The translations under genes were made by a program, and so were the position numbers. This document shows positions 2,422 to 44,353 of a stretch of DNA of 44,353 bases, piece after piece. Below the pieces are notes generated by a model. The model saw only the letters and a list, made by a program, of their open reading frames with translations, had not been told where the DNA came from and searched no databases. Origin of the DNA: Gemmatimonadota bacterium (lineage in GTDB: Bacteria > Gemmatimonadota > Gemmatimonadetes > Longimicrobiales > Gaopeijiaceae). The DNA lies in the NCBI GenBank assembly GCA_015664885.1, contig DQPL01000112.1:1-44353 (forward strand), given 5' to 3'. Each line of letters opens with the position of its first letter. Positions within the stretch are counted from its first letter, which is position 1.

Positions 2422-3224
2422 GTTCCGCCTCCTACAGGGACCGGCGTGGCAAAGGGCTCGATGAAGACCTCATCGCGCGAGCCGACTTCGGCACGCCGGT
2501 AGTGCTCCGTCCCGAGCAGCCGCGCCGCGTCTGGTTCACTGAGCTGCTGCAACACGCTCCCGTCGTACTGCGTGCGGTGGCATCGCAACGCGGCCAACTT
2601 CTTGCCCGCGAAGTCACCAGCCTCTACGACGAGCGTCGGCGCAGGCGCCATCGATCCGAACGCGTCCGCATCGGCTACACCGAGGATGGGCCTCGCAGGT
2701 TCATCAGCGCGCGCGGGCGCCTTCGATGCAGCGTCCACGACGGCGCGCATTCTGCCTGCAGGAATGCTGACATAGAATAGAGACGGGCCGTCGCTGCCGA
2801 GCCCAGCGACCACAGCAGTGGTTTGTTCGTGCACCGCGATGTGGTCTGGATGCCAATAGAGGCCGTCGGAGTCGAAGGTGACGACGACCTGTGGCTGCAA
2901 CCGGCGGATGGCGCCGAGGATGTCCGCCTCGAGCCGTAGGCTGTCGATCCAGGGCAGCATGCCGTCCTCGTGCTCGAGCAGTACGACGTCGCGGATGCCG
3001 AGAACCCGAGCGGCATCCCGCAGCTCGCTCGCACGAATGTCCGCAAGCCGCTCGTGCTCCTGCCCGGGACCGTGCTCGCCATGCGTGAGGCAGAGCAGCG
3101 AGACTCGGACTCCGTAGGCGGCGCAGCGGGCGAGCAGGCCACCACAAGCCAGTGACTCGTCGTCGGGGTGTGCGAAGACCGCCAGAAGGGAGGAAGCACT
3201 GAGATCTTCGACGGGCGGCGGCAT
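2418..3224 (-). CDS. PIG-L/LmbE family deacetylase
   Basis: A 268-residue zinc-dependent N-deacetylase. The family signature AHPDDES lies near residues 18-24 (His-Asp-Asp, metal site and catalytic Asp), and the second metal-binding stretch WHPDHIAVHE is near residue 124. Known members remove acetyl groups from N-acetylglucosamine in GPI precursors, mycothiol precursors or antibiotics. With glycosyltransferases directly upstream, deacetylation of an amino sugar in a surface glycan or glycolipid is the likely role. The gene is one base after the GT4 stop and overlaps the LON-domain gene by four bases. Confidence 0.88.
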   Translation of the reverse strand: MPPPVEDLSASSLLAVFAHPDDESLACGGLLARCAAYGVRVSLLCLTHGEHGPGQEHERLADIRASELRDAARVLGIRDVVLLEHEDGMLPWIDSLRLEADILGAIRRLQPQVVVTFDSDGLYWHPDHIAVHEQTTAVVAGLGSDGPSLFYVSIPAGRMRAVVDAASKAPARADEPARPILGVADADAFGSMAPAPTLVVEAGDFAGKKLAALRCHRTQYDGSVLQQLSEPDAARLLGTEHYRRAEVGSRDEVFIEPFATPVPVGGGT

Positions 3225-3225
3225 G

Positions 3226-4272
3226 TCAGGCCGTACGCTCGGCGCCGTGAGGCTCCGTGACCAGCCGCGCGTACGCCTCGACGTGCTCCGCGACCATGCG
3301 CTCGGGCCCGAAGCGCCGCACGGCGTGACTCCGTACCCGGCTGCGGTCGAGCGCCAACACGGTTGGCAGCCCCTGCACGAGCTCGTCGAGCGAATCGAAA
3401 ATGCCGCCGGTTACGCCGTCGTCGATGACCTCGTCGACGGCGCCTCGTCGAAGCGCGGCAACGGGAGTGCCGCACGCCATGGCCTCCGCGACCACCAGCC
3501 CAAAGGACTCACTTGATTGCACCGGATAGAGCAGCGCTCGCGCCCCGCCGAGCAGCTCGACCTTTTGCGGGAGGTCGACCTCGCCGGCGTAGACCACCTG
3601 ATGGCCGTCGACCATGGGTGCGACCACGTCTCGATAGTAGTCATTGGCCGCTGCGGCGAGCACGAGACGCAGGCCGGCCCGTCGGGCTACGTCGATTGCC
3701 TGCAGCACACCCTTGCCTTCAGTGAAGCGGCCCAGAAATACGAGGTAGTCCTCGCTTTTCGGGTGAAGAACGAACGTGTCCATGTCTACCGCGTGATGAA
3801 TCGTCCCCACGACGTTGAGGCCCCCGAGAAGCTGTGCCTGCGCGGCCGAAATGGCGACAAAGGGAGCTTCCGGGTAGCGAGACCAGAGCGCGACCTCGGG
3901 CGGGGTCGGCACGTGATGCACTGTGATCACGACCGGAGTGGGTGTGAGCCGCGTGAACGCCAACGACATCGGAGCGAACACCGCCTGATAGTGAATGACG
4001 TCGAATTCAGCAGCCCGCTCGACGGCGGCGGCGAGGTTGAACAGCTCGCAGAGCTCCCAAGGCCATAGCGAGGTATCCTCATGGTAACCGCGTTCGAAGC
4101 TGGCATGGAGCCTCGCTGTCGTCGTTGATGATCCGGCCGCGAAGAGGGTGACATCGTGGCCTTCGGCCACGAGGCCGTCGGTTAGCAACGCCGTGACGGT
4201 TTCGACCGATCCAGACCGCGTTGGTGGTATCGACTGGGCGACCGGGCCTACCACTGCGATACGCATCGTCAT
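3226..4272 (-). CDS. Glycosyltransferase family 4 (GT-B)
   Basis: A 348-residue retaining GT-B glycosyltransferase. The N-terminal domain opens with MTMRIAVVGPVAQSIPP and a donor-site-like GSVETV loop; the C-terminal domain has FLGRFTEGKG near residue 172 and the E-x7-E type motif in ESFGLVVAEAMACGTPV. An in-frame extension exists upstream, but I chose the ATG at 4272. It overlaps the stop of the preceding gene as ATGA, and the Rossmann strand begins right after it. No transmembrane segment is evident, so it should act at the cytoplasmic face, adding one sugar to the repeat or lipid made by this operon. Confidence 0.88.
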   Translation of the reverse strand: MTMRIAVVGPVAQSIPPTRSGSVETVTALLTDGLVAEGHDVTLFAAGSSTTTARLHASFERGYHEDTSLWPWELCELFNLAAAVERAAEFDVIHYQAVFAPMSLAFTRLTPTPVVITVHHVPTPPEVALWSRYPEAPFVAISAAQAQLLGGLNVVGTIHHAVDMDTFVLHPKSEDYLVFLGRFTEGKGVLQAIDVARRAGLRLVLAAAANDYYRDVVAPMVDGHQVVYAGEVDLPQKVELLGGARALLYPVQSSESFGLVVAEAMACGTPVAALRRGAVDEVIDDGVTGGIFDSLDELVQGLPTVLALDRSRVRSHAVRRFGPERMVAEHVEAYARLVTEPHGAERTA

Positions 4273-5390
4273 GCGCACGCTTCTTCCAGAAACCGCGGCA
4301 ACACCCGAGAAGCGTCGAAATACTCGCGCGCGATCTCTGTGGCGCGGCTCGCGTGCAGCGCGTAATTGCTTTCCAGCTGCTCGAGGCCGTCGAGTGCCTC
4401 GTCGAGCGTCGAAAAACCGATCAGGCCGGTGCCCGAGGGGAGGTGGGCGCTCCACCCGGTGTCCTGCACGAGCGCGGGTCGTCCAGCGGCGAGGTAGCAC
4501 TCCGTACGGTCACTGAACCAACCTGAGTGCCGAGCGACATAGGCGTGTTTGGCGACGCCGAACTCTGCCTTCGAGTCGCGGATGAAGTCGCGGTAGTCCC
4601 AAAGAGATCTGGAGACACCAATCGCCTCGACGGGCGACCAGCCGTGCTGCTCGAGCAACTCCATGGGACCGTTCACCGCGATCTCGAATCGCGAGGGCGT
4701 AAGAGCCGGAAGCTCGATGAAGCGCATGAATTCCCGATCCTTGTTGCCGTCGACATCGGTGAAGCTCTCGGTTCTCCAGGTCATCACGGTGGTGAAGCGG
4801 TCACCGGAGGGCGCCTGATCGGTCTGCCAGAGCTCGGTCACGACGGGCTGCCGGGTAGGGTGCCACACGAAGCCGCTCGTCGGCACGTCGCACGCTGAAG
4901 TGCCGATGTTACCGCCGAACGTGAACAGACGGTCGAATCCCTTGAAGAACTCGACATACCACTGCTCGCCCTTGGCGATAGCCAGCTGGGTAAACACAGG
5001 GTCCGAGTCGATGAACACGCGGCGCGGGATGGCCGCATACTCGTCACGCCAAAACCATGAGCCGCCCGAGAGGTTGACGAAGAGGTCGGCCTCGGCGCAG
5101 TAGGCTCGCACGGCATCCTTCGAGAGACCGTGGTACGAACCGTCGTAGTTGACGAAGCTCCAGCGATCCCCGAGGCCGAACGGTTCGAGCGCGTCATGGA
5201 TGTAGCGCGTGCCGTAGGCGGGGTCGGTCGCGATCTCGTCGCGCTCGGGGTCATAAATGCACTCGCCGGTGTCCTCGATGTAGAGCACCTCGTGCCCTAG
5301 GGCGCGCAGGCCCAGCAGATACATGAGTGAACACCAGGTGACGCCACCGAACGGATACCGGGCGACAATACCGGCGAACAGGATCTTCAT
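4269..5390 (-). CDS. GT-B glycosyltransferase-like protein (CgeB-like)
   Basis: A 373-residue protein starting with MKILFAGIVARYPFGGVTWC, a Rossmann-type strand with a GG loop. The C-terminal part, with RHSGWFSDRTECYLAAGRPA followed by QDTGWSAHLPSGTGLIGFST, resembles the donor-binding end of CgeB/GT1-like glycosyltransferases, where the E of TECYLAAGRP contacts the nucleotide sugar. The family match is by pattern only. It overlaps the ABC exporter gene (ATGA at 5387-5390) and the GT4 gene (ATGA at 4269-4272), so the three are probably translationally coupled. A sugar-transfer role is inferred; substrate unknown. Confidence 0.72.
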   Translation of the reverse strand: MKILFAGIVARYPFGGVTWCSLMYLLGLRALGHEVLYIEDTGECIYDPERDEIATDPAYGTRYIHDALEPFGLGDRWSFVNYDGSYHGLSKDAVRAYCAEADLFVNLSGGSWFWRDEYAAIPRRVFIDSDPVFTQLAIAKGEQWYVEFFKGFDRLFTFGGNIGTSACDVPTSGFVWHPTRQPVVTELWQTDQAPSGDRFTTVMTWRTESFTDVDGNKDREFMRFIELPALTPSRFEIAVNGPMELLEQHGWSPVEAIGVSRSLWDYRDFIRDSKAEFGVAKHAYVARHSGWFSDRTECYLAAGRPALVQDTGWSAHLPSGTGLIGFSTLDEALDGLEQLESNYALHASRATEIAREYFDASRVLPRFLEEACA

Positions 5391-7210
5391 GAAGTGATGC
5401 GCAGGAGTTCGTCCACCGTGCTCGAATCATCTAGCGATTCACCGAGGGACAGGCGCGCGCACATCTGTCGGTAGAGCTCGCACGTCGTGATCAACTCGTC
5501 GTGCGATCCATGAGCGATGAGTCGCCCATCGTCCAGAACGAGGATGCGCGAGGCGTCGCGGACCGTGGAGAGGCGGTGGGCGATGACCAACGTGGTGTGG
5601 TTGGCGCGGAGCCTCCGCAGCGTGTCGAAGATGGCCCCTTCGGAGATTGCGTCGACCGCGGAGGTTGGCTCGTCGAGAATCAGGATCGGAGCCGCTTTCA
5701 GGAGCGCGCGAGCGATACCGATGCGTTGGCGCTCGCCGCCCGAGAAGGTCGCGCCCGCCTCGTGGACAGGGGACTCGTAGCCCAGCGGCAGACGGCTCAC
5801 GAAGTCGTGGAGGTTGGCGTCTCGTGCCGCGGCCTCGACTTCAGCGTCCGAAGCGTCGAGCCGTCCGTAGCGGATATTGTCGGCGATGCTGCCGGTGAAC
5901 AGCACGGGCTGTTGCGGGACCAGTGCGATCTGCTCGCGGAGGGATCGCAACCCGTACCGAGCCACGTCGACTTCGTCGATGAGGACGCGCCCGGAGCTCG
6001 GCTCGAAGAATCTCGGAATCAGGCTGGCGATCGTGGTCTTGCCCGCGCCGGTCAGGCCTACCAGCGCCACCATCTCGCCGGGCCGGGCCTGGAAGCTGAT
6101 CGAGTCGAGAACGTTCCTATGCTCACCGTAGCTGAAGCTCACAGCATCGAAACGGATGTGGCCGCCGATGTCGGACGCATCGATGCCATCATCGGCATCG
6201 AGCACCTCGGGGGTGAGCGCGAAGATCGCGCGCACGCGCCGAGCGCTCGCGACAGCCTGTTGCAGGGATCCGGTCGAGTGGGCGATCGCCGAGATCGGAT
6301 CATAGACCGCGGCCAGATACGCGATGACGACGAGCAGGCTGCCGAGCGTCAATGTGCCGTTCATGACGTGAAGTCCGCCCACGATGAGCACCAGCGCGGT
6401 ACCGGCAAGTGTGATCGCCGTCACCACGACCGAGAAGAGCGACTCCTGCCACGTCAGCCTGAGTCGGGCTCGCATGGTGTCGTCGCCTGCGCTCGAAAAA
6501 CGAGCCAGCTCGTGGCGCTCGCGTGTAAAGCTCTTGACTGCGGCGACCGAGGAGAGGACCTCGAAGGCCCGCTCGATCAACGTCGACTCCAACGCCTTCA
6601 CGCGCTCGGCGCGATCTAGCATGGTGCGCGAATAAAAGCGGAGGCTCACGTACAGAAACGGCGCCACGACGAGCGAGAGCAGCGCGAGCGTCAGGTCCAC
6701 GTATAGGAGGACCGCGAACATGATCCCGAGATTAAGCGTCGCCAGAGTCAGCGGAAACACACCGCCGATGATCAGGTCGTCCACGCAGTGCGCGTCGGCA
6801 TCGAGTCGGTAGACCGAATCCGCCGTTGGGGTCAGCATGTGGTGCCGCAGCGGGAGCGCCTGCAGGTGCGCCAGCAGCTTGGCCCGAAGCGTGTAGACCA
6901 CGCGCTGGGCGACCTGCACCTGCATTTGAGTGTGGATCATGCGCGTGACCTCGTTGGCGATCTGGATGAGCAGACCCGCCAGGACGACGACGACGAGCAC
7001 GGCCACAGCGCTGCCGGCGATTGCGGAGGGCGTGAGCGCCGCGAGCGCCGGCGGAAGCGCAAGACCGTCCAGCACGTAATCCACGATCACTTTGAGCGGC
7101 CAGGGCGCCAGCGCCGCCAAGCCGATTTCCAGGAGGGAAAACGCGAAGATCACGGCGGCCTTTCTGCGATACGGCCGCAGGAACGCGAGCGTCCAGGAAA
7201 CTACGCCCAC
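5387..7210 (-). CDS. ABC exporter, fused permease and ATPase (MsbA/HlyB type)
   Basis: A 607-residue half-transporter. Six transmembrane helices occupy roughly residues 15-320. The nucleotide-binding domain has Walker A GLTGAGKTT, signature FSGGERQR, Walker B ILILDEPT and the H-loop in VIAHRLST. The frame is open upstream into the previous gene. The GTG at 7210 lies ten bases after that gene's stop and gives the usual short N-terminus before the first helix, so I prefer it. Exporters of this type flip lipids or glycolipids; next to a hydrolase/glycosyltransferase fusion and two GT-B enzymes it is the probable flippase for the operon's product. Confidence 0.88.
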   Translation of the reverse strand: MGVVSWTLAFLRPYRRKAAVIFAFSLLEIGLAALAPWPLKVIVDYVLDGLALPPALAALTPSAIAGSAVAVLVVVVLAGLLIQIANEVTRMIHTQMQVQVAQRVVYTLRAKLLAHLQALPLRHHMLTPTADSVYRLDADAHCVDDLIIGGVFPLTLATLNLGIMFAVLLYVDLTLALLSLVVAPFLYVSLRFYSRTMLDRAERVKALESTLIERAFEVLSSVAAVKSFTRERHELARFSSAGDDTMRARLRLTWQESLFSVVVTAITLAGTALVLIVGGLHVMNGTLTLGSLLVVIAYLAAVYDPISAIAHSTGSLQQAVASARRVRAIFALTPEVLDADDGIDASDIGGHIRFDAVSFSYGEHRNVLDSISFQARPGEMVALVGLTGAGKTTIASLIPRFFEPSSGRVLIDEVDVARYGLRSLREQIALVPQQPVLFTGSIADNIRYGRLDASDAEVEAAARDANLHDFVSRLPLGYESPVHEAGATFSGGERQRIGIARALLKAAPILILDEPTSAVDAISEGAIFDTLRRLRANHTTLVIAHRLSTVRDASRILVLDDGRLIAHGSHDELITTCELYRQMCARLSLGESLDDSSTVDELLRITS

Positions 7211-7220
7211 GGCCGCACCA

Positions 7221-9896
7221 TCAGTCTCCGAACTCGGACACCGCCGTTTCGGCGGACGGCCGGAGCGCAGGTGCGACCTTGGTCTCGACCGCGGCAGAGA
7301 TTGGTAGCCGCTGTAGCCCAGCCGCGGTGCTGACCCGTATGACCGCCTGGTCGAGTAGAGCCGCGCCACGGATCGCTTGCCACGTCGCGCGGGCGCCGAC
7401 AGCCGCGATGGCAAGCGCTGAGACAAAAAGCGTCACCGACGGCTCGTAGAGGAACATCGACGCGCTCATGCCGCCCGCCCCCAGCACCGCCAGCGTCAGG
7501 CCGCGCAGCGTGCCGACGAAGCTGGGACGCAGCCGTGCTCGCATGCGGAAGAGACAGGCTCCCTGTTCGTGCTCCTCCACCACGGTACGCACGTGAAGCC
7601 AACCCCAGCGCCCGATCGCCAGGCTGAGATCTCGGTCGGGACGCCATCCCTCGTCGACATCGACGATCCGGGCCGGGCGGGAAGCTCGTAGAACCCCTAC
7701 AAGCTCCGTCAAAAGCATCGTGTGCGAGACGCCCGAGTCGCTCCAGAAGGAGCGCTCCGTACCGGCGCGGGTCAGGAGCCGTGCGCCCGCGATCACGTCG
7801 CGCAGCGTCGGCAACTGTAACTTCCATGGATGTCGAGTCATGTGCTTCGGTGCGACCGCCTGGGGCCGTGACAGACCGCGCAGCCTGCCTCGGAATCGGG
7901 CCAGTGGCTGCAGCAGGTGCAGCCACGCGATGAGGCTCCGGTACAGAACGCGACTCTGCCACATGGACCAGTGTCCGATGGTGGGCAGACCGTCGAGGTT
8001 GGAGCGCCAACCGCACAGCGCACACCGCGTGAGGGTGGTGGCCCAGCCCAGCATGCCCGCGATCAGGGGTAGCCATGCGGCGTCCATGCCCGCTAGTGGG
8101 CCGAAGACGCCAACGAGCAGCAAGACCAGCGAGACCCCCATCCAGGCCGGCGAATGCGGCAGGTAGCGCCAACCGTGGGAGTGCGTGCTGTAGACCGACG
8201 GAAACGCCGCGGTACCCCAAACACCTGTGTTGACGCGCCGTGCGGCACTGGTGCGCAGGAAGGGGAGAGGGCTGTAAATGCGTCCCCGCCACAGCATTTG
8301 GCCACCGAGAAACTTCTCGGGGTGATGTGCATCGAGCCACGCTTCCCCTTCGCCGTACCCGACCTGCTGACACCAGAACGATCGCACGCTCGGCCGGCGA
8401 TGATGCCACACTAGCGCCGACGGCGCGAAGCCGATTTCCAATTGTTTTGCCTGCAGCCGCCAGCAGATGTCTACGTCGTCGCCCGCACGCACATAGACCG
8501 GATTGAAGCCGTCGGCGGCCAGGAGTGCCTCTCTTCTGAACGCCATGTTACAGCCCGGCACGTGCTCGGCGATCCGGTCGTCGAGCATGACGTGGATCGG
8601 CCCGCCCGGAGCCCGCGCGACACACTGCGACACCCACGGATCGTCCGCGGGCACGACGTTGGGACCGCCGACGCCGGCCACGTCCGAGTTGAGGAACGGT
8701 TGGACCAGATAGGTCAGCCAATCAGGGTCGACACGGACATCCGCATCGGTGTAGGCGATGATCTCGCCGGTCGCGGCAGCGAGCCCGGCATTGCGGGCTG
8801 CGCTCAAACCGCCATTGGGCAGGTTGAGGACGCGGACGTGGAAATGCCTTCGCGCGATGTCCCCAGTCGCATCGCGCGACCCGTCGTTGACGACGATGAC
8901 CTCCATGTCGGGGTAGGTCAGCTCGCCGAGCGAGGTCAGGCAGTCGGCAAGGGTGTCGGCCGCGTTGTATGCGCAGACGACCACCGACACCTTGGGCCAC
9001 GAAGCGCGCTCGCTGGCGGGGAACGCGGCGCCCGCGAAGGCTTCTCGCACCGCGGCGAGCGCCGGCTTGGCCTGTCGCGCCTCATCCACCAGGCCGAAGG
9101 CCCAGTCGTCGACCGTCCGACCTCCGCGCCACCACTCGTCGGTCCAGGAGTAGGCCACGGCACCGCAGGCGCCCTCGGCAAAAGCCGTTCGGATGTGTGT
9201 CGCGGTGATGAGCGCCTGGCCCTCGAGGCCCTCACGCAAACTGTCCGCTCCGGCTTCAGCCAGCAGCAGCGGCCGCGTGCCCGCGAGATGCTGCAGACGC
9301 GCGAGATAGCCGCGCAGCTCGGTCTCTCGATGCAGATAAACGTTGTAGGCGAAGACGTCGAACGCGTCGAGCTCGAGATGCTCCGTGGGCGGGAAGTTTA
9401 CATAAGTCAGCAGGCTATCGGGTGCCGCGGCTTTCACGTCTTCGTAGAGCTCACGCAGAAACCGCTCGATCCTCCGGTGGCCGTGCCAGCGCACGATTCC
9501 CGCGGGAATCTCGTTGCCCAGCGCGAAAAGCAGCGCCGCGGGGTGGGCCGCGATCTCGCGCACCGTAGTGACCGCGTCGCGTATGATGTTTCGAGTGAGC
9601 TTTCGGTCGTCGAGAAATGGGATGTGTTGCGGCCACGCCAATCCGACCATCACCCCGAGGCCGTGCCGGAGCGCGGCGTCGAGCAGGGCAGGGGACGGCG
9701 GCGTGTACGTGCGCACCGTGTTGATGCCTGCGGCCGCCATCAGGACAAAGTCTTGCTCGATTCGCTCTGTCGATCGGAACTGCGCCCCGTCGTGATTCGG
9801 AGCGAAGGTGCCGTAGGCCACTCCCTTGATCAGTAAACGACGCCCGTCGACCTCGAGAAACTTGCCATCCACGCGAGGGCGGTGAGCCACTTCCAC
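7221..9896 (-). CDS. Glycoside hydrolase (GH2-like)/GT2 glycosyltransferase fusion, membrane-bound
   Basis: An 891-residue fusion with a GTG start. Residues 15-290 form a GH2-type TIM barrel with the GNE acid/base motif (E129) and a candidate nucleophile in LLAEAGAD (E214), so both catalytic acids appear intact. Residues 300-560 are a GT-A family 2 transferase: VSVVVCAYN, VVNDGS (D338), TDADV (DxD, 383-385) and a later GDDVDICWR. Several hydrophobic helices follow (SPAWMGVSLVLLLVGVFGPL and others). It could build a beta-glycan and trim or transglycosylate it. It starts 15 bases after the ribA-like gene and is followed by the ABC exporter. Confidence 0.85.
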   Translation of the reverse strand: MEVAHRPRVDGKFLEVDGRRLLIKGVAYGTFAPNHDGAQFRSTERIEQDFVLMAAAGINTVRTYTPPSPALLDAALRHGLGVMVGLAWPQHIPFLDDRKLTRNIIRDAVTTVREIAAHPAALLFALGNEIPAGIVRWHGHRRIERFLRELYEDVKAAAPDSLLTYVNFPPTEHLELDAFDVFAYNVYLHRETELRGYLARLQHLAGTRPLLLAEAGADSLREGLEGQALITATHIRTAFAEGACGAVAYSWTDEWWRGGRTVDDWAFGLVDEARQAKPALAAVREAFAGAAFPASERASWPKVSVVVCAYNAADTLADCLTSLGELTYPDMEVIVVNDGSRDATGDIARRHFHVRVLNLPNGGLSAARNAGLAAATGEIIAYTDADVRVDPDWLTYLVQPFLNSDVAGVGGPNVVPADDPWVSQCVARAPGGPIHVMLDDRIAEHVPGCNMAFRREALLAADGFNPVYVRAGDDVDICWRLQAKQLEIGFAPSALVWHHRRPSVRSFWCQQVGYGEGEAWLDAHHPEKFLGGQMLWRGRIYSPLPFLRTSAARRVNTGVWGTAAFPSVYSTHSHGWRYLPHSPAWMGVSLVLLLVGVFGPLAGMDAAWLPLIAGMLGWATTLTRCALCGWRSNLDGLPTIGHWSMWQSRVLYRSLIAWLHLLQPLARFRGRLRGLSRPQAVAPKHMTRHPWKLQLPTLRDVIAGARLLTRAGTERSFWSDSGVSHTMLLTELVGVLRASRPARIVDVDEGWRPDRDLSLAIGRWGWLHVRTVVEEHEQGACLFRMRARLRPSFVGTLRGLTLAVLGAGGMSASMFLYEPSVTLFVSALAIAAVGARATWQAIRGAALLDQAVIRVSTAAGLQRLPISAAVETKVAPALRPSAETAVSEFGD

Positions 9897-9911
9897 CGGC
9901 GTTCCGACTGC

Positions 9912-11075
9912 CTAGTCCGCCGAGGCGTGCTGCGAGATCATATCCATCAGCCAGTGGCCCGAGCGGTCCACCTTGGCCTGGACGTAGCGGATGTTGTGGC
10001 GGTTGATGCCCCCGTACAGGGGCATACGCTCCACGACCTCGATCCCGCCGTCCTCGACCGCCCTCACCTTGTGCGGATTGTTGGTGAGCAGCTCGATCCG
10101 CGTGATGCCGAGGTGGCGCAAGACCGCCACGCCCGCTTCGTAGCGCCGCTCGTCGGCGCCGAAGCCGAGCACGCGGTCCGCGTCGATGGTGTCCAGCCCC
10201 TCCTGCTGAAGCGTGTAGGCGCGGAGCTTGTTGCCCAATCCGATGCCACGGCCCTCCTGGGCGAGGTAGACGAGCACGCCTCCGCCCCGCCTCTTGAAGT
10301 GGCGGAGGCTCCCGCGCAGCTGCTCCCCACAGTCGCAGCGCAAGCTGCCGAAGAGGTCTCCCGTGAGGCACGCCGAGTGCAGACGCACCGGCAACGGGTC
10401 CGGCCAGGCTTCCCGCGGGCCGATCAGCACCGCCACGTGCTCCAGTAGGCCCCCGCCTTCGCGAAACAATACGAAGCGGGAGTGCTCGGCGTCCGCCAGC
10501 GGGACTGGCGTCTCTGCCACGCTGGTGATCTCGATGCCTGACCGGGCGGCCGCGCACTCGACGTCCTCACTCGAGACCTCGAGAATCGTCGCGTCCTCGA
10601 TCCAGCGCGTGACTACCTGCGAGCCCGGATCCACTTCCACGGTCACGAGTGCCGGAAGCAGAAGTCCGGACCGGATGAGCGCCAAACCGGCAGACTCCGC
10701 CGAGGAGGCCGGACGCGCCTCGAGGCTGTTGGGTGAGCCCGATACGGCGGCCGGCACTGTGGCCGAACGCCCTGGGGAGCCGGCGGGTGGCCTTTCCGTC
10801 GCCAGTCCAAGGATGGTATCGCTGGTAGCGTCCGGGCCGAGCCTGAGGCTGAGGTTGGTCTCGCCCTCGTGCGTAGCGATCCCCATCGCTTGAGCGCGAT
10901 GGGGGGTCACGACCAGGCGCAGCGGTCGGCCAAGGGAGTGCAGCTGCTCCAGACGGTCGACCGAGAGGTTCTCGACTGCCGCGACCAGCACGCGCGCACT
11001 CCGGCCCTCGTCGGTCACGCAGAGAGCTCGCCCCTGCCTGAGCTCGAAGAGTCCTCGTTCCGCTTTGTGCGTCAT
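9912..11075 (-). CDS. ribA: GTP cyclohydrolase II with degenerate RibB-like N-terminus
   Basis: A 387-residue protein shaped like RibBA. The C-terminal half is GTP cyclohydrolase II: zinc cysteines C236, C247 and C249 in LHSACLTGDLFGSLRCDCG, the EGRGIGLGNK loop, and D308/R310 in GADERR. The Tyr equivalent to E. coli Tyr105 is kept (Y287 in RAYTLQ), which predicts the normal product, 2,5-diamino-6-ribosylamino-pyrimidinone phosphate plus formate. The N-terminal half resembles DHBP synthase, but the acidic catalytic DDEDRENE stretch is replaced by TDEGRSARV, so it is probably inactive. The gene could serve riboflavin synthesis or the proposed pterin-like pathway of its neighbours. It is divergent from the sulfatase gene and may head the glycan operon. 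Confidence 0.88.
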   Translation of the reverse strand: MTHKAERGLFELRQGRALCVTDEGRSARVLVAAVENLSVDRLEQLHSLGRPLRLVVTPHRAQAMGIATHEGETNLSLRLGPDATSDTILGLATERPPAGSPGRSATVPAAVSGSPNSLEARPASSAESAGLALIRSGLLLPALVTVEVDPGSQVVTRWIEDATILEVSSEDVECAAARSGIEITSVAETPVPLADAEHSRFVLFREGGGLLEHVAVLIGPREAWPDPLPVRLHSACLTGDLFGSLRCDCGEQLRGSLRHFKRRGGGVLVYLAQEGRGIGLGNKLRAYTLQQEGLDTIDADRVLGFGADERRYEAGVAVLRHLGITRIELLTNNPHKVRAVEDGGIEVVERMPLYGGINRHNIRYVQAKVDRSGHWLMDMISQHASAD

Positions 11076-12805: not shown

Positions 12806-13389
12806 CGAACCGTTTCGGCGTGGGCGCGCGTCTCTTCCACTGGCTGGTCGTGCTGCTGCTGCTGGTGCAGATCCCGGCGGGGATCGCGATGATCGCGCCC
12901 GGCCTCGAGCAGGGGTCGATCGACGTGCTCTTCGTCCTGCACAAGGGGCTCGGCGTCGTGCTGCTCCTGGTGGTCGTAGCCCGCGTGCTGTGGCGGCTGA
13001 CCCATTCGGCGCCGACCATGTCGGAGGCCATCCCGGAGCGCGAGCGGCGCATCGCGACCGTGATGCATGGAGTTATTTACGGCGTGCTGGTTGTGGTTGC
13101 GGGCAGCGGGTATGTACGCGTCGTGGGCGGGGGCTTCCCCATCGAGATGATGGACGTGCTCGGGCTTCCGACGCTGCTGCCCCTGATGCCCGAGGTCGCG
13201 GAGTGGGCGTCGCTCGTGCACCGATTCTCGACCTTCCTGCTGGTGGCACTGGTGTCGATTCACGTGGCAGAGGTGTTGCGGCACCATTTGGTTGTGCAGG
13301 ACGCGACGCTGGCGCGGATGTGGCCACCGCTGGGGGGCGGCAGCGCCCGGCCCTCGGCTGAATCGAAGCCCGGGCAGGGTGCTCCGTGA
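12802..13389 (+). CDS. Cytochrome b561-family membrane protein
   Basis: A 195-residue, four-helix protein. Likely haem ligands are His in RLFHWLV (helix 1), LHKGLG (helix 2), MHGVIYG (helix 3) and SIHVAEV (helix 4), the pattern of bacterial b561 proteins that carry two b haems and pass electrons across the membrane from quinol. A longer in-frame extension exists, but the GTG at 12802 overlaps the upstream stop (GTGA) and is directly followed by TNRFGVGARLFHW, the usual family start. The downstream FkbM gene overlaps it in the same way. Its electron acceptor in this cluster is unknown. Confidence 0.85.
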   Translation: MTNRFGVGARLFHWLVVLLLLVQIPAGIAMIAPGLEQGSIDVLFVLHKGLGVVLLLVVVARVLWRLTHSAPTMSEAIPERERRIATVMHGVIYGVLVVVAGSGYVRVVGGGFPIEMMDVLGLPTLLPLMPEVAEWASLVHRFSTFLLVALVSIHVAEVLRHHLVVQDATLARMWPPLGGGSARPSAESKPGQGAP

Positions 13390-14207
13390 TGTGGCGTGGC
13401 CTTGAACGGTGGCTGGGCCTGGTGCGTTCGCTGATCATCTATTGGCGACCGGGCCGCCAGCGCGGGCTTCGCGAGCTGTACCGCCCCTTCGTCGGGGCGG
13501 GGGACTTGGCCTTCGACGTAGGCGCGCACCTGGGCGACCGCACTCATGCGTTCCGGAAGCTTGGTGCGCGCGTGGTCGCCTTGGAGCCCCAGCCCGCGGT
13601 ACGCCGCTGGCTCATGCGATTTGTGGGACGCAGCGAGCACGTGTCGATTCGGGCGGAGGCGTTGGGCCGCGAAGTCGGTACCGCCCGCCTGGCGCTGAGC
13701 CGCCGCACTCCGACCGTCTCGTCGCTGGCGGAGGACTGGCCGAACGTGTTGCCCGAGCGCAACCCCAGCTTCCGCGGCGTGCGTTGGGATGATTCCGTGG
13801 AAGTACAGGTAACGACCTTGGACGCGCTGATCGAGGAGTATGGCCTACCTCGCTTCTGCAAGATCGACGTGGAGGGGTACGAAGCCAAGGTGTTGGCCGG
13901 ACTGAGTCAGCCTATCCCGGCGCTCTCCGTCGAGTTCGTGGCAGGCGCTCTGGACATCGCCGAAGCATGCGTGCGCAGGCTCGAAGCGCTGGGTCGCTAC
14001 GAGTTCAACGCGATCAAAGCAGAGGAGAGGAGCTTCATGTCGGAGCGCTGGCTCGCATCGGATGAAATGGTCTCCTGGCTGAGGCGCGATGGTGCGCGGG
14101 TTTCTTCAGGGGATGTCTACGCGCGACTGAGGTCCGACGCGGGCGCCGCGAGGGACGGTGTCTCAGATGGGGGCGCCCCCGGTAAGGCGGGTTCGATCGA
14201 TGGCTGA
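13386..14207 (+). CDS. FkbM-family methyltransferase
   Basis: A 273-residue class I methyltransferase. Motif I is DVGAHLGDRT near residue 44, the acidic end of strand 2 is ALEPQP, and the family-specific KIDVEGYEAKVLAGL lies near residue 158. FkbM-type enzymes usually O-methylate sugars or polyketides. The GTG start at 13386 overlaps the cytochrome b561 stop, and an ATG follows at once at 13389. The C-terminal 40 residues (Gly/Ala/Arg-rich) look disordered and overlap the next gene. In context it may methylate a sugar or the head group made by the cluster. Confidence 0.85.
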   Translation: MMWRGLERWLGLVRSLIIYWRPGRQRGLRELYRPFVGAGDLAFDVGAHLGDRTHAFRKLGARVVALEPQPAVRRWLMRFVGRSEHVSIRAEALGREVGTARLALSRRTPTVSSLAEDWPNVLPERNPSFRGVRWDDSVEVQVTTLDALIEEYGLPRFCKIDVEGYEAKVLAGLSQPIPALSVEFVAGALDIAEACVRRLEALGRYEFNAIKAEERSFMSERWLASDEMVSWLRRDGARVSSGDVYARLRSDAGAARDGVSDGGAPGKAGSIDG

Positions 14208-39251: not shown

Positions 39252-40166
39252 CTACTGGACCCGATCCGCCGCTCCGTGAGAGGCGAGCAGATGCTGCAGA
39301 GCCGCGATCAACTTCGAGCGCAGCACCGCGGCGCGTTCGCCGAGCTCCCGCTGGCGCAGGCGGTACTCGACGCGCCCCTCCTTTGTCTCGACCCGGACGG
39401 GTTCCAGGCCGAAGTCACCCAGGTTGTACGGACTGGCCTGCATGTCGAGCACGCGAAGCTCGGTCGCCAAGTCGAAGGTCTGCCACAACAGGTCGCTGCC
39501 GATCCAGGGCATGGCCCCATAAGCCCACCGATAGAGATCCATGTTCGCGTGAATGCAGCCGGGTTGCTCCACTTCGTGATGCGTCGACCACGCGAGCTCC
39601 ATCCGGTTCAGCGGCTTGGCCTGGGGCGCGAAGAACCGAAAAGCGTCGAAGTGGGTGCAAACGACTGGCCTGCTCTCGACGAAGTCGTCCACTTGTTTCT
39701 GGGATAGTCGGAGGGGGGCGGTCTCGCGATGGCGGACATCGTCTCCTCCGTACACCATCGCCCACTCATGGACTCCGAAGCACCCGAGGTTCGCCGGCTG
39801 GCGCTGCGTGGACAGCAACAAGTCCACCACGGATCGCTGTTGCTCGATGTCGTCGTCACTCAGGGCGCTCAGGTCGTGCCGGATGAGGCCGTCTGCTACC
39901 CGATAGCATGGTGGCTCGAAGCGTTCCCGACCCTCAGGCGAGTCGGCTAGGACTTCTCCGACTCCCGGATGCCAGGCCTCGAGTTTTGCCGGCGAATACA
40001 TGTAGTACTGAAAGAGGAAGTCGTGGACCGGGTGCGGTTCCTGGCGCGAGCGTCGCTCCCTATGCGGGACGGTCCAGCGCTGCACGCGCTCGAGGTGCGT
40101 GCGCGCGCGCGCGCGCCATTCGGTGGGCGTCAGTACCTGAGGGTCGCAGAGGGACGTATCGAGCAT
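39252..40166 (-). CDS. Conserved protein, often labelled 3-methyladenine DNA glycosylase-like
   Basis: A 304-residue cytoplasmic protein starting at the ATG at 40166 (the longer in-frame extension overlaps the transporter gene and lacks homologous-looking text). It has EWRARARTHLERVQRWT, HPVHDFLFQYYMYSPAKLEAWHPG, ANLGCFGVHEWAMVY, VCTHFDAFRFF and SPYNLGDFGLEPVRVET. Similar proteins in actinomycetes carry the label 3-methyladenine DNA glycosylase, but I see no helix-hairpin-helix or AlkA/TAG signature. Its His-rich conserved words (HPVHDF, HEWAMVY, THFDAFRFF, STHHEVEQPGCIHANMD) look more like a metal or haem enzyme. Function is best left open. Confidence 0.65.
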   Translation of the reverse strand: MLDTSLCDPQVLTPTEWRARARTHLERVQRWTVPHRERRSRQEPHPVHDFLFQYYMYSPAKLEAWHPGVGEVLADSPEGRERFEPPCYRVADGLIRHDLSALSDDDIEQQRSVVDLLLSTQRQPANLGCFGVHEWAMVYGGDDVRHRETAPLRLSQKQVDDFVESRPVVCTHFDAFRFFAPQAKPLNRMELAWSTHHEVEQPGCIHANMDLYRWAYGAMPWIGSDLLWQTFDLATELRVLDMQASPYNLGDFGLEPVRVETKEGRVEYRLRQRELGERAAVLRSKLIAALQHLLASHGAADRVQ

Positions 40167-40209
40167 GACACCACGCTCGGCTCTGGGAGAGGCCGTGTCC
40201 AGTGCTTCC

Positions 40210-41532
40210 CTACTGTGCCCTTCCGGTCGGCGGCACCCGGTTCCACAACGGGAGTAGCAGCAGGCCAGCGACGAGGGTAGCCACGGAGAAACCGTAGAAG
40301 AGAATGACGGTGGTGTCGGTGCCCGGGAACCAAGCCATGAGATAGCCTGGCAGTGCCACGCCCAGGATCTGTCCGAACGAGCCCCAGCCGTTGATGAAAC
40401 CAGCCGCACTTCCTGCGCCCTTCTTGGTTCCGAATTCGATGGCGGCCGTCGCGCTCAGCATCGAGTCTGGACCAAACAGAAACAAGCCGATCAAGAAGAA
40501 AGCGAGCAGGATCCCGCCGATGCTGCCTGAGTTGGTCAGCGGTCCGAAGAGGGAAAGGACCACCGCCAGCAGGAGAAGGCTGAGTACACAAGCCGGAAAG
40601 CGGCGCGCGTGGAAAAGCTTATCGGAAACGAACCCGATGGCGATCGGCGCTATGAGCCCGGCCGCCTCGAATGCCGCCGGAGCGGTGGCTGCGAGGGCAA
40701 AGCTTTCGGAGGCGAGGCGCTGGCTCGCGATCACAGGACCCCAGAAGAGGATCGCGTAACGAGCCGGCTTCAAGAGAAAGTAGACCAGCGCCATGACCAG
40801 CACGGGAGGACTGCGGAACACTTTGCCGATGAACTCCCAGGATCCCTCCTTCTCCTCATCGGGCGCGTTGTGGGCATCGACTACAGCCACCGGCTCGCCG
40901 TGGTACCGCTCGATCTCTTCGAGTCCGACGTCGTGCGGTCGATCGCGCTGGAGGAAGTAAAAGGGAATCGAAATCAGGAGTAAAACGGCGGCGCCCGAAA
41001 AGAACGCCCATCGCCAATCGTCGAATACCGAGTAGGCGAGGTACCCCGCGAGCGGGGACGCGACCAACCCGCCAAAGGCGTAGTTCGTGCACCAAAGGCC
41101 CATCACCCGGCCCCTCTCCTTGGACGAGAACCAGAATGCCATGTTCTTGGTCAGGGGTGCCCACCCGGTGGACTGGCAAAGACCTTGAACGAAGAAGAAG
41201 ATCCCGAGCAGAACGACCGTGGACGAAAGCCCCATTGCCACGGCGATGGCGGTTGACGCGAGAAGCCCGCCGAGCACGACTCGCCGGGGGCCGAATCGGT
41301 CGGCCGACATGCCCCAAAGGAATTGGCCGACACCGTACGCGACGCTGTATGCCACGTCGATATTGCTCGCCATGACCGGCGAGAGCCCGACCGCCGGATC
41401 ATCGAGAAGCCCGAGCTTGGCAACCGAGAATCCCTTGCGCGTAAGGTAAAACCCGGCATAGGCGAGCCAGGTGACCCCGAAGATCCGCCAGCGCCAGCGC
41501 CTGTAGGCGGCGTCCGTCCCTGTCGCTGCTAT
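40210..41532 (-). CDS. MFS transporter, organophosphate:Pi antiporter (GlpT/UhpT) type
   Basis: A roughly 440-residue transporter with twelve helices by eye. AYAGFYLTRKGFSVAKLGL in helix 1 and its loop, GQFLWGMSADRFGPRRV in the helix 2-3 loop, and GFINGWGSFGQILGVALPGYL in helix 11 are words of the OPA family that imports glycerol-3-phosphate, hexose phosphates or glycerophosphodiesters against phosphate. The start is unclear: no ATG, GTG or TTG lies in frame near the N-terminus. An ATA at 41532 has GGTGA four bases upstream and is used here; an ATG at 41691 lies deep inside the previous gene. It follows LicD and the cytidylyltransferase, which suggests a phospho-alcohol substrate. Confidence 0.8.
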   Translation of the reverse strand: MAATGTDAAYRRWRWRIFGVTWLAYAGFYLTRKGFSVAKLGLLDDPAVGLSPVMASNIDVAYSVAYGVGQFLWGMSADRFGPRRVVLGGLLASTAIAVAMGLSSTVVLLGIFFFVQGLCQSTGWAPLTKNMAFWFSSKERGRVMGLWCTNYAFGGLVASPLAGYLAYSVFDDWRWAFFSGAAVLLLISIPFYFLQRDRPHDVGLEEIERYHGEPVAVVDAHNAPDEEKEGSWEFIGKVFRSPPVLVMALVYFLLKPARYAILFWGPVIASQRLASESFALAATAPAAFEAAGLIAPIAIGFVSDKLFHARRFPACVLSLLLLAVVLSLFGPLTNSGSIGGILLAFFLIGLFLFGPDSMLSATAAIEFGTKKGAGSAAGFINGWGSFGQILGVALPGYLMAWFPGTDTTVILFYGFSVATLVAGLLLLPLWNRVPPTGRAQ

Positions 41533-41554
41533 GGTGTCACCGGCGGTGGCTCTC

Positions 41555-41968
41555 CTAGTCGACTTCGGCAGCCCGGATCCTGGCGATGATGTCGGTCGTG
41601 GAGATGCCAGGCGTGTAGCCCACCGTGCGGTACAGGCCCATCGCCATCGGAATCCTGTAGCAGAGCTCTTCCATCTCGGTGGAAAAGTCATCTCCGTGCA
41701 GGACCAGATTTATGTTGTGCCGCTCGATCCAGGCACGGTCGATCGTGAGTGGTGCGTCGGCCACTACTTCATCGACGTAACGACAGCCCTCGACCGAAGC
41801 GACACGTTCCTCCATGGAAAATATGGGGCGGCGCTTGTAGCTCATCACCGTTTCATCCGCGTGAACGCCCACCAGGAGGTAGTCACCATGCTCCTTGGCC
41901 TGTCTGAGCATGCCCACATGACCGTAGTGGAATAGATCGGCGACCATGTCGACATAAACGCGTGTGAT
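41555..41968 (-). CDS. Cytidylyltransferase (glycerol-3-P/ethanolamine-P/choline-P type)
   Basis: A 137-residue nucleotidyltransferase of the TagD/GCT type. HxGH is present as FHYGH (residues 14-17), then RQAKEHGDYLLVGVHADE, KRRPIFSMEERVASVEGCRYVDEV and the C-terminal GISTTDIIARI. It joins CTP to a phospho-alcohol to give a CDP-alcohol. The N-terminal strand TRVYVDMVADLFHYGH requires a start near 41968. The codon there is ATC, with AGGAG eight bases upstream. The only in-frame ATG upstream (42109) lies inside LicD, and the next ATG would remove the first strand. The product would feed LicD or the sulfatase-fold transferase. Confidence 0.82.
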   Translation of the reverse strand: MTRVYVDMVADLFHYGHVGMLRQAKEHGDYLLVGVHADETVMSYKRRPIFSMEERVASVEGCRYVDEVVADAPLTIDRAWIERHNINLVLHGDDFSTEMEELCYRIPMAMGLYRTVGYTPGISTTDIIARIRAAEVD

Positions 41969-42014
41969 TTTATGGTCTCCTGTTAGGACTTCGAGTGCTG
42001 TTGATCGGGCGGCG

Positions 42015-42938
42015 TCAGAACTGTTCAGGGACCAGAGCGTCCACTCTGCCAGCGGGGTTCTGAGGATCCGGTCTATAGACGTAGTCGAAATGAGGGGCAA
42101 GCTGCTCACCGTAGAGGATCTCGTGGTGCTCTCCGTGCTCGACCCCGACTACGTATCCAGCTTGGCCGGGTAGACTGAAATAGACATAGCCATCTGTGTT
42201 CGTCTTTGCTTTGGCCAGCCCTGTCAGGACGGTCGTAGCGGCCAACGACACCACGGCCCCTTCGATCGAACGACCCTCGACGTCGAGGATCTTCAGACTG
42301 CCAGTGTGCCGTCGAGGGTCGAGTTCGTTGCTCAGGGCAATGATTCCCCCGGAGGTAGCGGGAAGAGTGGTCTCGGCCATGAGATCCAGGACTTCTCGTT
42401 CGAACGCGCCGGCCTTCTTCGGAACCATCCATTCCGGCCCATACTTGAGCCGGAGGTATTCCTCGGGCGGATTCGGGACCCAGAATTTCTCGCCGAGGAA
42501 ATCGATCTCTCTCAAGTCCGTGTGGAGCCTGACGGGGATTTGAGTCATCGGCCACTGGTAGATGCTGTCGTCAATGATCCGGTAGCAGGCCCAGTCGATC
42601 TGGCAGCCGGACTTCTTTAGGTCAACCGCGAGACTCAGCTCGTTCATATCGACGTTTGCGGCGAATCCGTCCTCCTCGAACACAGGAACTACGCTGTGTA
42701 CGCGCTCTTCGGTGAGACCGTGCAGGCCGATCACCGAGCCGATATCCAGGTCGTCATCCCATTCGATGAACGCATGATCCCTCACAGCGCCCAAACACGT
42801 GCCATGGCGCAAGAAGAAGACCAGTCCGAGTCGATCCAGGATCTGTTTTACGTCTTTGAGCACGGCTTCGGCCACGCTCATTTCCATGGGCTCGAAGACT
42901 GTGGTCCGCGGGGCTGTGGGCCGCTTGGCTATGGACAT
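42015..42938 (-). CDS. LicD-family phosphotransferase with C-terminal CarboxypepD-regulatory-like domain
   Basis: A 307-residue protein. Residues 30-70 hold the LicD core LGLVFFLRHGTCLGAVRDH and EWDDDLDIG, the acidic metal-binding motif of phosphocholine, ribitol-phosphate and glycerol-phosphate transferases. The core ends near residue 190. Residues 210-290 (SLKILDVEGRSIEGAVVSLAATTV, KAKTNTDGYVYFSLPG) form a beta-sandwich-like carboxypeptidase-regulatory repeat, an unusual addition. LicD moves a phospho-alcohol from a CDP-alcohol to a glycan, so the cytidylyltransferase just downstream is a natural donor enzyme. I chose the ATG at 42938; GAGGAG is very close to it, so the start could be a few codons off. 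Confidence 0.83.
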   Translation of the reverse strand: MSIAKRPTAPRTTVFEPMEMSVAEAVLKDVKQILDRLGLVFFLRHGTCLGAVRDHAFIEWDDDLDIGSVIGLHGLTEERVHSVVPVFEEDGFAANVDMNELSLAVDLKKSGCQIDWACYRIIDDSIYQWPMTQIPVRLHTDLREIDFLGEKFWVPNPPEEYLRLKYGPEWMVPKKAGAFEREVLDLMAETTLPATSGGIIALSNELDPRRHTGSLKILDVEGRSIEGAVVSLAATTVLTGLAKAKTNTDGYVYFSLPGQAGYVVGVEHGEHHEILYGEQLAPHFDYVYRPDPQNPAGRVDALVPEQF

Positions 42939-42957: not shown

Positions 42958-44353
42958 TTAGTTGCCTTCGTATACGATCCCGCCACCGACGACGGTCATG
43001 CGGATTGTAATATCCTTGATCTCGTCGACGGGTACAGCCGTCGGGTCGCTCGACAGGACCACGAAGTCGGCCAACTTGCCTACCTCGATCGATCCCTTGA
43101 TGTCTTCCTCGAACACCGAATACGCGCTTCCCATCGTCCATACTCGGATCGCCTCTTCGGGCGATATCCTCTGCTCGGGGCCGTAGACCTTCCCTTCGGC
43201 GCTCGTGCGCGTCACGAGGCTCTGAATGCGAAGCATCGGAATCGCGGCGCTGACCCCGTAGTCCGAATTGCCGGCTACGGGGATGCCCATGTCCAGCGCC
43301 AGCCGGTTGGTGTGCATCATGCTCCATCGATCCGCGCCGAACGCCTCCATCTTGTCGCCGTGCTCGTAGACATAGGAGTGCAGAACGAGGACGAGCTCGA
43401 GCTCCTTCACCCTCTGGAGAATGGCGGGACTCACCACGCTGGCATGTTCGATCCGGTGCCTGTGGTCCGATCTGGGCAGCCGGGCGAGAGCCTTCTCGAA
43501 CGCGTCGAGAAGCATCGTGATTTCCCGGTCACCGTTCGAGTGGACACCCACCTGGAATCCCCCCTCGTGGATCGTGAAAATCAGAGAATCCAGCTCGCTC
43601 TGTGTCTGGTCGGGTGGAATCCCGTAGTAGTCTCGCTCGCCCGTGGCCGGATTGACCATGTCGTAGGGCTCGAATAGCCAGGCGGTTCTCCCCGACAGAG
43701 AATTGCCGTGGTGCGCCTTGATGGGTCCGACCTTGAGCCACGAATCCCCGAAGTCCGTGCCGAGTCCCCCCGCCTGGAATTCATCGAGGTGCTCACTGAG
43801 AACCATCATGACCACACGAACGGGGGATCCCGGACCCACCGCCGCCCGGAACAGACGCAGTTTCTCGGGGCTCCCCCCCGCGTCGACGACCGTCGTGATG
43901 CCGGTCGTCGCGAACTGCCGGAGCGTGCGCTGGATCCCCCCCACTTCGTCCTGACTCGTGATCGGAGTCTCGGTCACCGCCTGGCGGAGAACACGGCAGG
44001 CGAGCTCACGGCAGACGCCGTTCGGCGTTCCATCGTCCGCTCGATCGAACGCTCCTCCGGGAGGGTCAGGAGTGTCCCGAGTGATCCCGGCGGCGCTCAT
44101 TACGAAGGAGTTCGCAACCCCGAGGTGACCACTCGAGTGGGTGATGTAGATGGCGTGACGGGTGGAGGCTTGATCCAGATCGGCTCGAGTAGGGTGTCGT
44201 CCGAGCTTGGTGTCCTCATAACGGACGCCGCGAATCCACTGGCCCTCCCGGACCAGCGCTGCTTTGGCCGCGAGCGCATCGATCAGATCGGCCATCGAAG
44301 CGACGCTGGCCGGGCGGAGGTCCACGGTAGCGAGGGGGGACGCTTCTGGATAC
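42958..44353 (-). CDS. Amidohydrolase family 3 (YtcJ-like), N-terminus outside window
   Basis: The frame stays open to the right edge, so the true start and the N-terminal HxH metal site are not in view; a GTG at 44325 is probably internal. The visible part has KAHHGNSLSGRT, VGVHSNGDREITMLL, HRHRIEHASVVSP (metal His), IPVAGNSDYGVSAAIPM (Asp) and the C-terminal RISPEEAIRVWTMGSAYSVFEEDIKGSIEVGKLADFVVLS, all standard for the YtcJ/AmidoHydro_3 group. These enzymes hydrolyse amides or N-acyl compounds. It is followed after 19 bases by LicD, so it may be part of that transcript, though the link is not obvious. Confidence 0.83.
   Translation of the reverse strand, partial: YPEASPLATVDLRPASVASMADLIDALAAKAALVREGQWIRGVRYEDTKLGRHPTRADLDQASTRHAIYITHSSGHLGVANSFVMSAAGITRDTPDPPGGAFDRADDGTPNGVCRELACRVLRQAVTETPITSQDEVGGIQRTLRQFATTGITTVVDAGGSPEKLRLFRAAVGPGSPVRVVMMVLSEHLDEFQAGGLGTDFGDSWLKVGPIKAHHGNSLSGRTAWLFEPYDMVNPATGERDYYGIPPDQTQSELDSLIFTIHEGGFQVGVHSNGDREITMLLDAFEKALARLPRSDHRHRIEHASVVSPAILQRVKELELVLVLHSYVYEHGDKMEAFGADRWSMMHTNRLALDMGIPVAGNSDYGVSAAIPMLRIQSLVTRTSAEGKVYGPEQRISPEEAIRVWTMGSAYSVFEEDIKGSIEVGKLADFVVLSSDPTAVPVDEIKDITIRMTVVGGGIVYEGN

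Follow-up and report, generated by a model that had tools for sequence, protein, structure and literature searches.

A LicD-cytidylyltransferase pair beside an OPA-type carrier in Gemmatimonadota, read as a candidate variant of Lic- and Pnt-type surface decoration

In lic1-type systems (LicA-LicB-LicC-LicD) a small phospho-alcohol is activated with cytidine triphosphate (CTP) and then transferred by LicD, and in the Pnt clusters PntC carries out a nucleotidyl activation of an aminoethyl phosphorus compound, 2-aminoethylphosphonate (AEP), a step believed to come before the compound is passed to the cell surface. Here we analyse a LicD-family gene, a cytidylyltransferase gene and an OPA-type carrier gene on contig DQPL01000112.1 of the Gemmatimonadota assembly GCA_015664885.1, the whole analysed stretch of 44,353 nucleotides being referred to as the window. 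The first-pass annotation had reported the three genes as adjacent and co-directional, and all three are present and adjacent on the minus strand, with secure family assignments. We interpret the trio as most probably a Lic/Pnt-type surface decoration variant whose tag is AEP or ethanolamine phosphate. What is new is how known enzyme families are combined; the chemistry is not of a new kind. A literature search of incomplete coverage found no description of such a cassette.

The cassette shares with lic1 the sequence of activation and LicD transfer and, in two of its relatives, a choline/ethanolamine-family kinase. Unlike lic1, it has an HxGH-type cytidylyltransferase related to ethanolamine-phosphate cytidylyltransferase (ECT) in place of LicC, an OPA carrier or a pyridoxal-phosphate (PLP) decarboxylase in place of the choline permease, and a LicD bearing an extra C-terminal beta-sandwich. 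The earlier suggestion of a LicD-based route for a CTP-activated phospho-alcohol, built on enzyme classes unlike those of lic1, was supported. From the Pnt clusters it differs in that its cytidylyltransferase belongs to another superfamily and in that no phosphoenolpyruvate (PEP) mutase-family match was found in the window genome (G000) or in G113.

We favour, with moderate confidence, a reading in which a mobile LicD-cytidylyltransferase core would make and use a CDP-activated amino-alcohol phosphate for surface decoration, with a host-specific supply. The HxGH cytidylyltransferase would convert ethanolamine phosphate and CTP to CDP-ethanolamine, from which LicD would move phosphoethanolamine to a hydroxyl group on a glycan or glycolipid of the surface. 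Ethanolamine phosphate would be brought in through the OPA-type carrier in Gemmatimonadota, the window included, would be supplied by a choline/ethanolamine kinase in UBA1120 and UBA1142, and in six Chloroflexota loci would come from a SMUL_1544-like decarboxylase acting on O-phosphoserine. If this is true, the cassette would represent a third enzyme architecture for zwitterionic surface tags, beside Lic and Pnt, built on the cytidylyltransferase type that eukaryotes use for phosphatidylethanolamine. Import, kinase and decarboxylase would be exchangeable sources for one two-gene core, so that the substrate would be testable from gene neighbourhood alone, and relatives of SMUL_1544, so far known from norcobamide synthesis, would gain a likely role in surface chemistry. 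From two phyla with uncultured members, Gemmatimonadota and Chloroflexota, the cassette would also provide specific enzymes for assay.

The LicD-cytidylyltransferase pair

The window LicD scored 48.5 bits (E=1.5e-12) against PF04991, for which the cut-off is 22.6, and contains the motif GTCLGAVRDHAFIEWDDDLD; the residues C-L-G-A-V-R-D...W-D-D-D-x-D were invariant across 12 aligned family members. In its AlphaFold model (mean pLDDT 86.8) an FKRP/LicD fold is predicted at residues ~13-177, which superimpose on FKRP (6kal) with a Z of 17.8 and an rmsd of 2.7 over 160 residues; a Foldseek comparison with FKRP gave E 2e-8. The nearest NCBIfam model was that of the cholinephosphotransferase Mf1 of Mycoplasma fermentans, a LicD-family enzyme that accepts CDP-ethanolamine and transfers phosphoethanolamine from it onto glucosyl-diacylglycerol (PMC11982090). 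The window protein differs from Mf1 in scoring far under the equivalog cut-off (55 against 225 bits), in aligning mainly over the N-terminal catalytic part, and in having a beta-sandwich that lies outside the match. This separate C-terminal domain is predicted at residues ~205-305 and was found in all 12 aligned family members. It had been annotated as a CarboxypepD-regulatory domain. PF13620 reached 14.8 bits on the window LicD and 20.7 on a LicD homologue at locus L020, under the Pfam cut-off of 32.3, but the sandwich makes such a fold plausible, and Foldseek matches of the whole LicD model include carboxypeptidase N (2nsm) and transthyretin (4mrb), with low TM-scores. Acceptor binding by this domain is a guess.

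The cytidylyltransferase matched PF01467 at 82.8 bits (cut-off 21), and a family profile built from 10 sequences scored 185.6 bits against human ECT (3elb), 100 against CCT, 67 against TagD and 67 against the phosphonate-pathway chain 5x3d. A teichoic-acid identity was rejected, as TIGR01518 gave 68.7 bits where the TagD equivalog cut-off is 165.4 and ECT is far closer; phage cytidylyltransferase matches, at most 40% identical, were not informative. Eukaryotic PCYT2/ECT is thus the best sequence relative of known structure, and with it the family shares the HxGH motif, which reads HYGH and is invariant among the 10 members, together with the catalytic Lys and His, the equivalents of PfCCT Lys663 and His709, likewise invariant. 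Among the residues that hold the choline head in PfCCT are Trp692 and Tyr714 (PMC6060094); in the family the former position is Leu/Ile and the latter Phe/Val. Unlike PCYT2, the window enzyme is a single short domain, not a tandem, and since the RTEG signature discussed below is not matched, we name it ECT-like and not a true ECT.

An alignment of three LicD copies, used to scan ~85,000 genomes, gave 12 loci, and one further locus, L038, was reached through the PLP enzyme described below. In 11 loci from 10 genomes of Gemmatimonadota and Chloroflexota, the cytidylyltransferase comes directly after LicD. The Gemmatimonadota pairs are those of the window, of UBA1120 (L011) and, twice, of UBA1142 (L012, L013); the seven Chloroflexota pairs are L014, L015, L016, L018, L019, L021 and L038. 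L020 is an orphan LicD (37% identity), and the LicD locus L022 is cut by a contig end. UBA1151, the genome of L038, carries a second, orphan LicD (L017, 3936-4823) with no cytidylyltransferase neighbour. LicD was present in one of 39 near relatives, besides one stray motif match, and was not found in the same-genus genome G001, which marks it as a patchy gene. The pair is also rare, as 400 sampled Chloroflexota genomes gave no new LicD locus and only the query's own genome matched. No LicD relatives were found in viral contigs and plasmids.

The carrier and other supply modules

The carrier matched PF07690 at 157 bits. Its best NCBIfam models were TIGR00881 (196 bits) and glpT (194), against 116 bits for the sugar-acid (D-galactonate) model TIGR00893, which agrees with the first-pass view of an OPA and not a sugar-acid MFS protein; all of these subfamily scores lie under the models' own cut-offs and assign no substrate. 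GlpT (1pw4) was the best PDB match, aligned over the full length with E=1.8e-43. GlpT Arg45 and Arg269 aligned to Arg (R32 and R258, invariant in five carriers), while GlpT Lys80 and His165 are not retained. AepP, a permease related to GlpT, has been proven to import AEP (PMC8316502). The window carrier may be likened to it as a GlpT-related protein that keeps the phosphate-binding arginines and has relatives near PhnX-like and PhnW genes; unlike AepP, it is joined to LicD and the cytidylyltransferase and not to catabolic phn genes. Its cargo may thus be AEP, ethanolamine phosphate or the two alike.

All four Gemmatimonadota loci have the carrier next to the pair, though not in a single order: it is LicD-cytidylyltransferase-carrier in the window and carrier-LicD-cytidylyltransferase in L011, L012 and L013. 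The first-pass annotation had treated the trio as one unit and looked to its recurrence elsewhere; it recurs once in UBA1120 and twice in UBA1142, but the carrier is absent beside the Chloroflexota pairs and so no obligatory member of the unit. A choline/ethanolamine-kinase-family gene (PF01633, 84 bits, cut-off 29) lies upstream in L011 and L012.

A PLP enzyme is encoded divergently from LicD in six Chloroflexota loci (L014, L015 at 6475-7659, L016, L021, L022 and L038), its copies being ~60-70% alike over the full length. Its predicted structure is weak (pLDDT 68). Among PDB chains, SMUL_1544 matches it better than CobD or HisC do, the top match being 6oux (E=3e-87, 296 bits), entitled 'Structure of SMUL_1544, a decarboxylase from Sulfurospirillum multivorans'; the next chain scored 89 and CobD (1lc5) 73. 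The presumed role of SMUL_1544 is to provide the ethanolamine phosphate of norpseudo-B12/norcobamide (PMC4585668), and in Campylobacter a separate enzyme, Cj1436, decarboxylates serine phosphate, which yields ethanolamine phosphate for the capsule (PMC12409886). In contrast to SMUL_1544, the Chloroflexota gene adjoins LicD and is not part of a cobamide operon. Of four PLP-bearing genomes tested, CbiB is found only in G266 and is missing from G262, G263 and G268, so that in those three the enzyme probably has no function in making cobamides, and a cobamide role was largely rejected.

Alternative readings of the tag, the acceptor and the carrier

Three independent hints point to ethanolamine phosphate over phosphocholine: the nearest relative of the cytidylyltransferase, the loss of its choline box and the SMUL_1544-like neighbour. 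Ethanolamine phosphate is on these predicted grounds the probable tag, whereas AEP and some other compound are each unlikely. A lic1-like system with phosphocholine as substrate and a phosphocholine-decorated glycan as product would fit the family membership of LicD, the cholinephosphotransferase Mf1 as its nearest NCBIfam model and the kinase-family gene in L011 and L012, which is compatible with choline or ethanolamine alike. However, the choline-box tryptophan is lost from an enzyme nearer to ECT than to CCT, a SMUL_1544-like decarboxylase is expected to yield a primary amine and not choline, and the locus contains neither a LicC-type enzyme nor a LicB-type choline permease. We regard the phosphocholine system as very improbable; ethanolamine phosphate, or AEP, is the better candidate substrate, although the first-pass annotation had drawn its comparison with lic1-type phosphocholine systems.

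A further reading to be weighed is a decoration with scavenged AEP, a compound isosteric with ethanolamine phosphate. Gemmatimonadota would then mount AEP, taken up by an AepP-like permease, activated to CMP-AEP by the cytidylyltransferase and transferred undegraded as a phosphonate by LicD, without C-P synthesis of their own, and the Chloroflexota cassette would use ethanolamine phosphate from O-phosphoserine. AepP sets a precedent for the import, and CMP-AEP activation of the PntC type is a known route of surface decoration, although the PntC enzymes studied to date resemble LicC (PMC6697681). Carrier homologues of 52-56% identity in G070 and G124 are flanked by genes for beta-phosphoglucomutase-like and phosphonatase-like (PhnX-like) HAD proteins, and in G070 a genuine PhnW (AEP transaminase, 570 bits, cut-off 401) lies 3.5 kb from the homologue; the PhnX-like proteins themselves stay under the model cut-off (TIGR03351, 169-172 bits against 219). 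De novo AEP synthesis in the window genome was rejected, since neither G000 nor G113 gave a PEP mutase-family match, and AEP there would need import; PF13714 matches in the Chloroflexota genomes may be isocitrate-lyase-type relatives. The Chloroflexota and kinase-bearing relatives, moreover, supply a phosphate ester and no phosphonate. We consider the AEP scheme unlikely.

The carrier might, on the other hand, be a chance neighbour without any part in decoration. It would then stem from a catabolic unit of amidohydrolase and carrier that existed before the LicD pair was inserted there. In G001 (L046, G001:C34:15000-29000, 6414-9633) the carrier stands straight after an amidohydrolase gene, with no LicD pair between them; the carrier is 89% identical to that of the window over the matched part and the amidohydrolase 91%. 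This arrangement is either an empty site for the pair or the trace of its loss, and because the amidohydrolase directly precedes the carrier there without LicD and the cytidylyltransferase, it is the probable ancestral neighbour of the carrier. (The G001 carrier frame is broken near codon 50, by pseudogenization or a sequencing error.) In G070 (L048, 4085-13001) and G124 (L047, 5008-8745) the homologues lie in a conserved cluster with a class II aldolase and HADs, near which G070 also has an amidohydrolase homologue; by its predicted gene content this may be an undescribed phosphonate-type catabolic cluster. In contrast, UBA1120 and the two UBA1142 loci join carrier and pair in another order and in other surroundings, so that carrier and pair must have come together, or stayed together, on more than one occasion. 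We regard the chance-neighbour explanation as doubtful, though the least so of the alternatives.

The pair might also make a membrane lipid head group, phosphoethanolamine on a (glyco)lipid, as a replacement for phosphatidylethanolamine where phosphatidylserine decarboxylase is absent. This decarboxylase (PF02666) is indeed absent from all seven Chloroflexota genomes tested, the substrate of Mf1 is glucosyl-diacylglycerol, and no recurring glycan cluster lies beside the pair. Yet the decarboxylase was found in the three Gemmatimonadota genomes tested, G000 included, and a core lipid pathway would be expected to be more widespread than a pair seen in 1/400 sampled Chloroflexota genomes, which makes a lipid role of this kind as unlikely as that of AEP.

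Several points weigh against the ethanolamine phosphate cassette itself. The CCT/ECT/GCT signature RTEG(I/V)ST(S/T) reads YTxGIST in the family, in which an invariant Tyr (Y124) replaces the Arg that stacks on cytosine, so that CTP use is itself presumptive. Three relatives, G001, G070 and G124, have the carrier but lack the pair beside it, and in the last two it lies in a phosphonatase-like context. The window's own genome has no detectable PLP decarboxylase (best match 28% identity) and no relative of the L011/L012 PF01633 gene at E<=1e-8, other kinase families lying outside that search, and its supply would thus depend on the carrier alone. Near the Chloroflexota pairs L018 and L019 neither a decarboxylase nor a kinase was found, and no recurrent glycosyltransferase was observed next to the pair. 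What the sequences show directly is gene content, adjacency, family, fold and conserved residues; we infer the substrate, its import by the carrier, its activation with CTP and its transfer by LicD to a surface glycan or glycolipid, a surface sugar being the presumed acceptor and Mf1 a precedent for the transfer step with this donor. The two phyla, Chloroflexota and Gemmatimonadota, should have envelopes of different types, and this would favour an acceptor common to both phyla, such as a glycolipid or an exopolysaccharide.

Start codons and neighbouring genes

In 10 of the 11 loci, and in both phyla, the cytidylyltransferase gene appears to begin with ATC or ATT where its first strand starts, and AGGAG/GGAGG precedes this codon by 7-8 bases (window 41966-41968, L011-L016, L018, L021 and L038); L019 has ATG at the equivalent codon. 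In six of the 10, no ATG, GTG or TTG occurs between the upstream in-frame stop and the first strand. From the ATC/ATT codon to the next ATG, third positions vary while amino acids are kept (read by eye), which argues that the stretch is translated. The window cytidylyltransferase thus most likely starts at ATC 41968, as predicted from this comparison, and the conserved near-cognate start is possibly regulatory. In Streptomyces, sigR is known to have a non-canonical GTC start that IF3 represses (PMC5472188).

The carrier most likely starts at ATA 41532, to judge from the same ATA in five of five close relatives (window 41530-41532, L011, L012, L013 and L046 of G001). The mechanical open reading frame call had placed the start at ATG 41691, which lies inside the upstream gene. 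A programmed frameshift to account for the missing ATG was set aside, because in G001 an in-frame stop lies shortly upstream, with the ATA as the third codon behind it, and direct ATA initiation is the simpler explanation. In four loci the ATA overlaps a tiny [AG]TG-NNN-CCA-TA[AG] reading frame.

The features of the window are collected in Table 1.

Table 1. Coordinates of the trio and adjoining features in the window.
Feature	Coordinates	Strand	Evidence and remarks
LicD-family phosphotransferase	42015..42938	-	307 aa from ATG; PF04991, AlphaFold model, FKRP match, 12-member alignment
HxGH-type cytidylyltransferase, ECT-like	41555..41968	-	137 aa; PF01467, PDB profile scores; proposed start ATC 41968-41966
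Shine-Dalgarno-like AGGAG(A)	41976..41981	-	8 bases before the cytidylyltransferase ATC
OPA-type MFS carrier	40210..41532	-	440 aa; PF07690, TIGR00881, glpT; proposed start ATA 41532-41530
Amidohydrolase_3 family protein	42958..44352	-	PF07969, 285 bits; upstream of LicD, runs off the contig

The gene order, all on the minus strand, is amidohydrolase, LicD, cytidylyltransferase, carrier, and the amidohydrolase is possibly co-transcribed with the trio. Directly downstream of the carrier, 39252-40409 (minus strand) encodes ~300 aa from the likely ATG, with no Pfam or NCBIfam match. Towards the other contig end a separate glycan region (2418-11075, minus strand, and 13386-14207, plus strand) holds a PIG-L deacetylase, an ABC exporter, an FkbM methyltransferase and glycosyltransferases, the last being GT4-like, plus a GT2 with a glycosidase-like N-terminal part.

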